NCBI GenBank assembly: GCA_946479855.1
Contig: CAMLHL010000078.1
Location: 1-11,526, forward strand
DNA: 11,526 bases
From: an uncultured Pseudomonadota bacterium
Lineage (GTDB): Bacteria > Pseudomonadota > Gammaproteobacteria > Burkholderiales > Rhodocyclaceae
Direction: 5' to 3'
Shown here piece by piece: positions 5,635 through 6,999 of this stretch. The notes beneath the pieces were generated by a model. That model made no database searches and was not told where the DNA came from. It saw nothing but the letters and a program-made list of their open reading frames with translations. The position numbers and the translations under genes were made by a program. Numbering within the stretch: position 1 is the first letter of the stretch; each line of letters opens with the position of its first letter.

Positions 5635-5649
5635 GGGGACTCAGTCCTC
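5635..5649. terminator. Small hairpin between coq7 and the OsmC-family gene
   Basis: GGGGAC (5635-5640) can pair with GTCCTC (5644-5649) around TCA, which is the stop codon of the minus-strand gene. There is no T-run on either side and the stem is short, so termination here is only a guess. Confidence 0.25.
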
Positions 5650-6069
5650 GTTGATGATTTCGAAGTCGTAGGTGATCGCGGCAGTTTTGCTCATCATGAT
5701 CGAGGCAGAGCAATATTTGTCCTTCGATAGTTCAATGGCGCGAGCTACTGCGTCCGGCTTTAGTTGCCTGCCTTTGACGCGATAGTGGAAGTGGATGCCG
5801 GTGAAGACTTTCGGGTCGCTGTTGGCGCGCTCGGCTTTTAGGCTGACATCGCAGCTGCTTACTTGGTGACGTCCCTTTTTTAAAATCAGCACGACATCAA
5901 AGGCAGAGCAGCCGCCGGTGCCGGCCAGCACCATTTCCATTGGGCGCAGGCCGATATTTCGCCCTCCTGCTTCCGGTGCGCCGTCCATCACGACTGCGTG
6001 TCCACTACCGGTTTCTGCGACAAAGGACATCCCGGCGTCGTCGCCCATCCATCTTACGGTGCATTCCAT
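5641..6069 (-). CDS. OsmC/Ohr-family protein (YhfA-like)
   Basis: A 142-residue OsmC-fold protein. The two conserved cysteines of the peroxidatic family are present: Cys54 in TGGCSAFDVV and Cys120 in DKYCSAS, with the general PMEMVLAG (43-50) active-site helix. Many members reduce organic hydroperoxides as dimers with paired thiols, but the YhfA-type subgroup that this resembles in length and in the ending SKTAAITYDFEI has no settled function. The ATG (6067-6069 on minus) has AGGAG six bases upstream. It is a single gene converging on coq7 with 21 nt between. Upstream is a TAAAAT -10-like element and a perfect 8-1-8 dyad (6135-6151). Whether it is OsmC, Ohr or YhfA cannot be decided by eye. 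Confidence 0.9.
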   Translation of the reverse strand: MECTVRWMGDDAGMSFVAETGSGHAVVMDGAPEAGGRNIGLRPMEMVLAGTGGCSAFDVVLILKKGRHQVSSCDVSLKAERANSDPKVFTGIHFHYRVKGRQLKPDAVARAIELSKDKYCSASIMMSKTAAITYDFEIINED

Positions 6070-6093
6070 ATTGGTCTCCTGGCAAGACTGCGA

Positions 6094-6099
6094 ATTTTA
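6094..6099 (-). promoter_or_regulatory. Possible -10 element of the OsmC-family gene (TAAAAT)
   Basis: On the minus strand TAAAAT sits 25 bases before the ATG, the right distance for a short leader carrying the AGGAG site. No convincing -35 is found 16-18 bp upstream, so an activator may be used; a dyad lies further upstream at 6135-6151. Confidence 0.35.
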
Positions 6100-6134
6100 G
6101 CGGATATCGAGCCGCTAAGGCTGTGGCTGGGTTG

Positions 6135-6151
6135 ATGCTGCGCCGCAGCAT
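6135..6151. repeat. Perfect 8-1-8 dyad upstream of the OsmC-family gene
   Basis: ATGCTGCG and CGCAGCAT flank a single C. The next bases, TGAATTCA (6152-6159), are a second palindrome. If the -10 at 6094-6099 is right, the dyad centre is about 56 bp before the start site, where a dimeric activator could bind. No plus-strand gene or T-run makes it a terminator. Confidence 0.4.
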
Positions 6152-6250
6152 TGAATTCATTGTTCGGTTGCCGCAGGCGCTGGCCTTTTTTGTTTATTGT
6201 ATGGTGAATTATTGTTGGTAAATTAGATTTAACTCAGTATTTACAATGAA

Positions 6251-6294
6251 TTGATTGTGATAAATAATGATTATTTGTGAATAATAATTAGAAT
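6251..6294 (+). promoter_or_regulatory. Candidate FNR/ANR-dependent promoter of the putative small RNA
   Basis: TTGAT-TGTG-ATAAA at 6251-6264 matches the FNR/ANR consensus TTGAT-N4-ATCAA at 9 of 10 positions. A TAGAAT -10 lies at 6289-6294, with no TTGACA-like -35 at the proper spacing. A start near 6299-6301 puts the box centre (6257.5) at about -41.5 to -43.5, the class II activator position. CAATGAATTGATT (6244-6256) also fits the IHF consensus (YAA-N4-TTGATW) exactly and shares the TTGAT half-site. AAATAAT-G-ATTATTT (6262-6276) is Fur-like. The matches are seen directly; factor identity is inferred. Confidence 0.5.
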
Positions 6295-6298
6295 GGTG

Positions 6299-6461
6299 CG
6301 ACGCACAAATAATTCTTGCGACTCGATCGTGGTTCGGGCAGAATGTGAAGCGTTGGAGCTGTAGCAACTTAATAGCGATAAGTTCTTCAGTTCAGATTTG
6401 TCTCCTCCACCCTCCTCCTTTGGTGTGGATTTAACGCGGCTCAGCGAGCCGCGTTTTTTTT
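6299..6461 (+). ncRNA. Putative trans-acting small RNA with CU-rich anti-Shine-Dalgarno hairpin
   Basis: The 501-nt gap between the OsmC-family gene and rplM ends in a strong plus-strand intrinsic terminator that no upstream plus-strand protein gene can use. Between the candidate promoter and that terminator are about 160 nt with RNA-like order. There is a 6-bp hairpin AACTTA / TAAGTT (6366-6371, 6379-6384, loop ATAGCGA). A single-stranded CU stretch TCTCCTCC (6401-6408) runs into a hairpin whose TCCAC (6406-6410) pairs with GTGGA (6425-6429) and whose C6411-C6412 pairs with G6422-G6423, leaving loop TCCTCCTTT. The terminator follows. Two CCTCC copies are complementary to Shine-Dalgarno sequences. 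A 23-codon frame (ATG 6293 to TAG 6362-6364) has no ribosome site and its ATG precedes the expected 5' end, so I do not call it a gene. The start and the function are inference; I cannot name an RNA family. Confidence 0.55.
6433..6461 (+). terminator. Intrinsic terminator of the putative small RNA
   Basis: AACGCGGCTC (6433-6442) pairs perfectly with GAGCCGCGTT (6446-6455) around an AGC loop, and the stem runs into eight T (6454-6461). On the minus strand the stem is followed by only TTAAAT, so it is directional for plus-strand transcription. It lies 30 bp before the rplM promoter and insulates it. Confidence 0.92.
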
Positions 6462-6490
6462 GTCTCTTTGTCGGTTTTGTTGATAAGGCA

Positions 6491-6520
6491 TTGACAGTTG
6501 CACGTAGAGTCGACTAGAAT
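6491..6520 (+). promoter_or_regulatory. Sigma70 promoter of rplM-rpsI
   Basis: A perfect TTGACA (6491-6496) and TAGAAT (6515-6520) are 18 bp apart, followed by a GC-rich CCGCGCC discriminator. Such discriminators are typical of growth-rate and ppGpp-controlled translation genes. The start is expected near 6527, giving a leader of about 44 nt before rplM. Confidence 0.85.
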
Positions 6521-6570: not shown

Positions 6571-6999
6571 ATGAAAACGTTTTCCGCCAAGCCACATGAG
6601 GTGAAGCGCGAGTGGTTTGTGGTAGACGCCACAGACAAGGTGCTCGGCCGCCTCGCTACCGAAATTGCTCGCCGCCTGCGTGGCAAGCATAAGGCTATTT
6701 ACACTCCGCACGTTGATACCGGCGATTTCATCGTTGTTACCAATGTCGAAAAACTGACCGTGACCGGTAACAAGGCCGAAGACAAGAAGTACTACCGCCA
6801 CTCCGGTTATCCGGGCGGTATCTACGAAACCAACTTCAAGAAGATGCAGCAGCGTTTCCCGGGGCGCGCCCTGGAAACCGCCGTCAAGGGTATGCTGCCG
6901 AAGGGTCCGCTGGGCTACGCCATGCTGAAGAAGCTGAAGTGCTACGCCGGTGAACAGCATCCGCACACTGCCCAGCAGCCGAAGGCTCTGGAAATCTAA
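6571..6999 (+). CDS. rplM: 50S ribosomal protein L13
   Basis: L13 is an early-assembling large-subunit protein that binds 23S rRNA. The 142 residues equal the usual length. Family signature: [20 protein letters not shown] then YAGEQHPH (about 108-134); the start [20 protein letters not shown] is standard. The ATG at 6571 is preceded by AGGA at 6555-6558, an unusually long 12-base spacing, so leader folding or another contact may help initiation. In E. coli L13 represses its own operon through the leader; this leader is not obviously similar, so that control is only possible here. It is cotranscribed with rpsI, which starts 9 nt after the stop, from the strong promoter at 6491-6520. Confidence 0.99.

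Follow-up and report, generated by a model that had tools for sequence, protein, structure and literature searches.

What gene ends at the intrinsic terminator that stands ahead of rplM in this Rhodocyclaceae DNA, and what controls it? In the window, by which we mean the whole 11,526-nt stretch of DNA analysed, the gene order is coq7 (+), an OsmC-like gene (-), a short RNA gene (+) and then two genes which we take from their translations to be rplM and rpsI. The terminator ranks first among 18 terminator-like sites of the window, and no plus-strand protein gene stands between the OsmC-like gene and it, just as the first-pass annotation had it: the only plus-strand open reading frames of at least 60 aa from coq7 on (5918–6100 and 5940–6221) run antisense to osmC over all or most of their length. 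From this layout an undescribed Hfq-type trans-acting small RNA (sRNA) of no recognised family had been proposed. The type of object holds, by analogy with the Bordetella sRNA S17, but "undescribed" does not, since an Rfam/Infernal-type check places 6399–6462 (+) in family RF02278 (Betaproteobacteria toxic sRNA), with a match over the full length of the model that scores 64.4 bits, above the curated cut-off of 50. Membership in NmsRb (RF02877, 28.8 bits against a cut-off of 52), Bp1_781 (RF02423, 26.9 bits against 80) or ncS16 was rejected, as the scores of the window fall under the Rfam cut-offs. By its sequence, then, the sRNA gene is genuine and its family already described; the RNA itself is an ordinary further member of RF02278, and the novelty lies in the pair of PhaR-type operators upstream of it.

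Table 1. Features of the sRNA locus and its neighbours, in window coordinates.
Feature	Position	Strand	Remarks
coq7		+	in the window, to the left of the OsmC-like gene
OsmC-like gene (osmC)	5641–6069	-	divergent neighbour; Pfam PF02566, 60.3 bits; start codon at 6069
Distal PhaR-type operator (predicted), ATGCTGCGCCGCAGCAT	6135–6151	.	centre at about -208 from the putative start; 2 mismatches to YTKNTGCRNYGCANMAR
AT-rich spacer	6152–6292	.	length conserved (139–141 nt, 15 loci), sequence not; AT 0.71 against 0.44 for the window
Proximal PhaR-type operator (predicted), ATGGTGCGACGCACAAA	6293–6309	.	centre at about -50, just upstream of the -35 hexamer; 1 mismatch to the R. eutropha consensus
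-35 hexamer TTGCGA	6316–6321	+	from the alignment; TTG part conserved; 17-nt spacer to the -10 hexamer
-10 hexamer CAGAAT	6339–6344	+	GATAAT in several relatives
Primary sRNA, ~111 nt (putative)	6351–6461	+	deduced from promoter position and terminator; fold z -3.9
5' hairpin	6352–6397	+	sequence variable, structure kept
RF02278 core	6399–6462	+	Rfam match 64.4 bits, E 2.1e-11, cut-off 50; model 1–64 of 64
Anti-Shine-Dalgarno pairing site UGUCUCCUCC	6399–6408	+	equivalent of S17 Site 1; role assigned by analogy
Hairpin 2 with CU-rich loop	6406–6429	+	from fold and alignments
Intrinsic terminator	6433–6461	+	10-bp stem 6433–6455, T-run to 6461
Separate promoter-like site TTGACA-18-TAGAAT	6491–6520	+	before rplM; 11 of 12 matches
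rplM (ribosomal protein L13)	6571–6999	+	downstream neighbour of the sRNA

Comparison of rplM loci reveals which parts of the locus are under constraint. The core is found upstream of rplM in 40 of the 80 loci that we fetched, in addition to the window; these 40 were chosen by the presence of the word GTCTCCTCCA upstream of rplM, and 15 were aligned with the window. The nearest relatives by rplM (99% at the protein level) are Dechloromonas, Azonexus and an uncultured Rhodocyclaceae. Two contigs filed as Chloroflexi and Malonomonas MAGs (L008 and L014) carry rplM genes 96–97% identical to the window protein and are probably misbinned Rhodocyclales contigs. In alignment A2 the 31 nt from 6399 on are shared without a change by all but one (L045) of the 21 rows from L001 to L049; only 21 of these nt count as evidence, since GTCTCCTCCA (6400–6409) was the word by which the loci were selected and its invariance is uninformative. 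The ordered hairpins and CU-rich sequence that had been read from the window are there, the latter in the core, with folding z-scores of -3.9 for 6351–6461 and -4.4 for 6398–6461. Alignment of the regions upstream of rplM, the check for covariation proposed at first, gives a positive answer for two elements. In the terminator stem 8 of 10 pairs are changed on both sides (62 such cells against 16.3 in shuffles, 30 sequences across Betaproteobacteria), and in the 5' hairpin 10 of 17 (16 cells against 6.0, with none of 500 shuffles reaching 16; 15 sequences, putative start to terminator). Versions of the whole structure slid out of register give only 4–9 both-sided cells against the 16 in the 5' hairpin, while hairpin 2 is invariant and the terminator almost invariant in the same 15 sequences. 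Conservation is thus not confined to the terminator: the core, the promoter, the palindromes and the covarying 5' hairpin are kept as well.

Where does the RNA start? The alignment of the 15 relatives with the window, together with a scan of the DNA further upstream, shows the following order from left to right: a first palindrome (centre 6143), AT-rich sequence without conservation, a second palindrome, the -35 hexamer, the -10 hexamer and the RNA. The conserved promoter, TTGCGA-17-CAGAAT at 6316–6344, lies 3' of the second palindrome, which stands directly before and across 6299, the start proposed at first. Judged by the positions of promoter and terminator, the transcript would run from about 6351 to 6461, that is over ~111 nt. 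A short form may be processed from it near 6399, in analogy to the 67-nt S17S. Family membership, the promoter position, the three hairpins and the two conserved palindromes are all established by comparison of sequences.

The proximal palindrome, TTGTGC-N3-GCACAA, reads TGGTGCGACGCACAA in the window, where it ends at 6308, and occupies the same place in close relatives. It resembles the consensus deduced for Ralstonia eutropha PhaR, YTKNTGCRNYGCANMAR (PMC12849132, as far as the available text goes), from which the site at the promoter (6293–6309) differs in a single position; the PhaR homologue of Herbaspirillum, PhbF, a tetramer, is reported to give a footprint on a TGNTGCN3GCAA site (PMC3206438, available part). 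Within 150 nt upstream of the core, a site with at most one mismatch is found in 22 of the 41 rplM-linked loci and one with at most two in 36, counts to which the relatives contribute as non-independent samples, while 1934 control windows from the same loci yield 0.31% and 2.12%, respectively. When the palindromic consensus is permuted 200 times, the count never gets to 36 (mean 1.3; highest 29, from near-copies of the true consensus), and among rplM loci without the core, searched up to 300 nt, a site occurs in 4 of 39. The remaining five of the 41 have 3 (three loci), 4 and 5 mismatches, and L043 and L074, both among the 36, have their best match away from the promoter palindrome. The significance comes from conservation across loci and not from the window, where matches to the consensus with at most two mismatches are not significant on their own (4 against an expected 2.46, and 54 of 200 shuffled sequences give at least 4). 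On this basis we predict that both palindromes, 6293–6309 and 6135–6151, are PhaR operators.

The same palindrome connects the sRNA with phasin genes. A search of 10 Rhodocyclales genomes for exact TTGTGCNNNGCACAA gave 18 places, one to three in each genome, and none for the reversed-pattern control. Five of these places are the sRNA locus and six are at Pfam-confirmed phasin genes; the other seven (L081, L083, L086, L090, L094, L095 and L097) are elsewhere, with no phasin recognised by eye or the gene not identified. At the phasin genes a second operator follows 56–60 bp on, which recalls the footprinted two-operator layout of R. eutropha phaP1 described in the accessible part of PMC12849132. 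An order survey of 150 genomes found RF02278 in 99 (59 over the cut-off) and PhaR (PF07879) in 102, a number that includes one genome with a fragment; 89 RF02278 loci were fetched, 81 of them with a readable core. Of the 38 genomes with phaR, 27 have a site with at most two mismatches, as compared to 1 of the 16 without (Fisher p = 1.2e-5); with at most one mismatch the numbers are 11 of 38 and none of 16 (p = 0.023), and per locus, with at most two mismatches, 32 of 57 and 1 of 24, all contrasts that are inflated by kinship and copy number. In 11 of the 38 phaR-containing genomes there is no site at this two-mismatch threshold. The presence of RF02278 itself does not depend significantly on phaR in the survey (72 of 102 genomes with phaR, 27 of 48 without, p = 0.098), and so the idea that the family occurs mainly where phaR does was rejected. 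In several phaR-less genomes (L141, L146, L149, L157, L176, L188 and similar) the region upstream of the sRNA shares by eye a promoter sequence like ATATTAGATAAT, which suggests another regulator there.

The distal palindrome raises the question of how the two sites work together. They are 158 bp (15 helical turns) apart in the window, and 156–158 bp apart in the window and 14 close relatives, with the distal site within two mismatches in 12 of the 15. The spacer between them is nearly random from species to species in these 15 loci, with an ungapped identity of 0.37 as compared to 0.30 when shuffled and 0.91 for rplM, and is 58–83% AT. Since the spacing is constant while the sequence in between is near-random, the pair is best read as the two ends of a putative DNA loop held by a PhaR tetramer. 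PhaR is reported as a tetramer in two relatives; the R. eutropha paper, in its available part, assumes dimers (PMC12849132). An alternative that we regard as possible, though less likely than not, is that the distal palindrome serves osmC, which is divergent and whose start codon is 66–82 bp away, and that the spacing is fixed simply by back-to-back promoters. The operator spacing varies, however, by only 2 bp in 15 loci, as against a core-to-rplM distance of 161 to 235, and it is 143–147 bp, or about one helical turn less, in a set of seven loci (L022–L025, L027, L029 and L040) from Thauera, Zoogloea, Aromatoleum and the like; L043 has 156 bp. The argument from fixed spacing is in turn weakened by the loci at 155 (L019), 154 (L032) and 165 bp, by others which differ more (66 to 205 bp), and by four loci with a proximal site where the distal site was not found.

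The position of the operator in further copies of the family bears on its role. In eight paralogues (L107, L110–L113, L116, L117 and L121) it is centred 31–33 nt before the core, over the -35 hexamer, and because of this position these RNAs may start at or near the core itself. Two of the eight, L113 and L121, score just below the RF02278 cut-off. The operator lies over the -35 also in several Burkholderiaceae-type loci, while none was found in the paralogues L099, L108 and L119 of one Zoogloea genome or in the weak matches L114 and L120. The order survey yielded in addition six weak RF02278 matches (L213–L218; 32–40 bits, below the cut-off) within ~1.2 kb of phaR, which may be relatives of the family or lookalikes. 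In four of them (L213, L214, L215 and L217), and perhaps in L216, a double hairpin scoring 33–40 bits follows 0–67 nt after the stop of a phasin-like open reading frame (Pfam-confirmed in L213 and L215, by eye in L214 and L217), so that sRNAs from phasin 3' ends are possible in these four. Beyond the hairpins there is a phaB-like gene in L213, L215 and L216. The match in L218 (982–1061, minus strand, 32.4 bits) lies divergently to phaR and is preceded by a TTGACA promoter-like site and two PhaR-type operators. A phasin 3'-end copy as a general feature was rejected: among 20 further phaR neighbourhoods a weak RF02278 match was found only in L301 (28 bits). Weak RF02837 matches occur in four of the same 20 (L298, L299, L301 and L305).

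Which messages could such an RNA act on? In seven genomes of the Dechloromonas/Azonexus type, GGAGGAGAC stands shortly before an ATG in 60 rows, as compared to 8 for the reversed pattern. Recurrent orthologous predicted targets are an AMP-binding, acyl-CoA-ligase-like gene in six of the seven genomes, which we take to be FadD-like, a second ligase in four, a solute-binding protein in four, DctP in three, another solute-binding protein in three and ETF-QO in two, with one member of each of the six groups named by Pfam. The predicted duplexes have energies of -20.8 to -25.2 kcal/mol in eight examples. The enrichment is weak (AC follows GGAGGAG in 9 of 71 rows, with ~4.4 expected from a dinucleotide control in one genome), and it may be that bacteria of this kind have many GGAGGAGAC-type ribosome sites anyway. 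The carbon-uptake and acyl-CoA genes are to be taken as predictions.

With a probability of roughly 0.73, we propose that the locus encodes an Hfq-type sRNA of the RF02278/S17/NcS27 kind, putatively controlled by PhaR, which would close ribosome sites according to the status of polyhydroxybutyrate (PHB). In the mechanism that we envisage a PhaR tetramer would bridge 6293–6309 and 6135–6151 across the 15-turn AT-rich loop and, as we lean to believe, repress the sRNA. PhaR comes off DNA on sticking to PHB granules, and once the granules have taken it up the ~111-nt RNA would be made. Cleavage near 6399 may then yield a short form, as happens with S17. With its UGUCUCCUCC tail and CU loop the RNA would cover the ribosome sites of solute-binding proteins, acyl-CoA ligases and ETF-QO, so that the inflow of carbon would be damped during storage.

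Is PhaR a repressor here? We consider this somewhat the likelier sign of control, because the proximal site is placed as at phasin promoters, and over the -35 in the paralogues and several Burkholderiaceae-type loci. The same sRNA and operators could also work with the opposite sign, free PhaR in the absence of granules switching the sRNA on and metabolism being restrained when storage is empty. The centres at about -50 and -208 do resemble the sites at roughly -70 and -200 of R. eutropha phaP3, which is PhaR-activated according to the available part of PMC12849132, no operator overlaps the putative start, in contrast to phasin promoters, and Burkholderia relatives are raised also by starvation (PMC5688073, in part). 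We regard activation as unlikely all the same. Relative to the -35, the proximal operator sits where it does at phasin promoters, which are reported as PhaR-repressed in R. eutropha (PMC12849132) and Herbaspirillum (PMC3206438) in the portions of these papers available, and an operator over the -35, as in the eight paralogues, fits repression.

It is improbable, in our judgement, that the palindromes bind a different regulator and resemble PhaR sites only by accident. PhaR binding is deduced here from likeness of the sites, seven of the 18 exact palindromes are neither at the sRNA nor at a confirmed phasin gene, and three core-bearing loci from phaR-containing genomes have no promoter-proximal site: L034 and L045, where neither the proximal nor the distal site was found, and Burkholderia L074, the nearest to NcS27. 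Loss of phaR as an explanation for L034 and L045 was tested and failed, as both genomes have it; phaR is present in 37 of the 38 genomes with an rplM-linked core that were asked, including those of L034 and L045. Against an accidental likeness stand the six exact palindromes that accompany confirmed phasin genes, arranged as at phaP1, and the co-occurrence of the site with phaR.

The original reading, an undescribed RNA of ~160 nt starting at ~6299 from a promoter that ends near 6294, perhaps under FNR- or Fur-type control, now has very little in its favour. A sigma70-like site with 10 of 12 matches at 6240–6268 and AT-rich palindromic sequence are indeed present, and at ~6250–6285 this sequence was, to our reading, plausible in the window alone as an FNR- or Fur-type site. 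Yet this promoter, including the proposed -10 (TAGAAT, 6289–6294) and its AT-rich surroundings, is unconserved in the 15 relatives, promoter-like sites in the window number 8 against 5.1 expected, the conserved promoter lies further on, and the family is already in Rfam. The suggested regulation by aerobic and anaerobic growth went the same way: no conserved site stands behind it, and the sites that are conserved match PhaR operators. A cis-acting leader or attenuator of rplM, in spite of the recurrent position upstream of that gene, can be practically dismissed, as a terminator closes the RNA, a separate promoter-like site serves rplM (6491–6520, near-consensus for sigma70, between the terminator and the gene) and RF02278 copies are found also at other places of the same genomes.

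A broader proposition, to which we would give even odds, is that the betaproteobacterial "toxic" anti-Shine-Dalgarno sRNAs form the RNA arm within the PhaR regulon. Uptake of PhaR by PHB granules would open a helically phased DNA loop, and the sRNAs thereby switched on would close the ribosome sites of carbon-uptake and acyl-CoA genes, in a wiring arrived at independently of the alphaproteobacterial MmgR, lost or replaced in phaR-less lineages, and with a related RNA in the phasin mRNA 3' end of some Burkholderiales. In the open-licence PMC literature we did not find a link of PhaR to RF02278-type sRNAs stated. The describers of the Burkholderia sRNAs call the regulator of their accumulation unknown and mention an upstream motif common to three of them (PMC5688073, available part), and a 2021 review describes the riboregulation of PHB storage as undeciphered in Cupriavidus necator (PMC8401924, likewise). 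If the proposal is true, the conserved operator pair would answer both questions with one testable hypothesis and would connect a storage polymer that matters to industry with a widespread family of sRNAs.

How does the sRNA compare with known systems? The RF02278 RNAs of Burkholderia cenocepacia (NcS03, NcS05, NcS27 and NcS62) have the core, double hairpin and terminator found here, and NcS27 is described as longer and processable to a short form (PMC5688073, in part). The available texts report slower growth on NcS27 overexpression (PMC5688073, PMC10987360) and greater abundance of its relatives in glucose medium, starvation and biofilm (PMC5688073). The window differs from them in its PhaR-type pair upstream of the -35, a site which in some Burkholderiaceae-type loci overlaps the -35 and in L074 was not found. 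Bordetella S17, in the accessible part of PMC11722255, shares pairing site 1, the terminator and nearly the same core, and coq7 is beside it as it is in the window; the paper also notes a 27-nt region identical in several Betaproteobacteria. Its 67-nt form arises from a longer precursor, which the authors ascribe to RNase E; S17 co-precipitates with Hfq, represses by pairing at the ribosome site, as compensatory mutations demonstrated, and many of its predicted targets are transporters, while S17S reportedly leaves E. coli unimpaired in exponential growth (PMC11722255). S17 is raised in the Bvg+ mode (same source). At our locus, osmC sits between coq7 and the sRNA. The Neisseria RNAs NmsRA and NmsRB likewise have two anti-Shine-Dalgarno motifs and differ in that their levels rise in a relA knockout (PMC5362039, in part). 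One alphaproteobacterial family, that of MmgR, is not known to be among the six Rfam families listed for the window. MmgR of Sinorhizobium meliloti (alpha-r8 family) has 77 nt and is reported to lower phasin proteins, an effect not predicted for the sRNA here, and the available parts of PMC12542648, PMC9049629 and PMC8401924 describe it as a PhaR/AniA-repressed sRNA tied to PHB storage.
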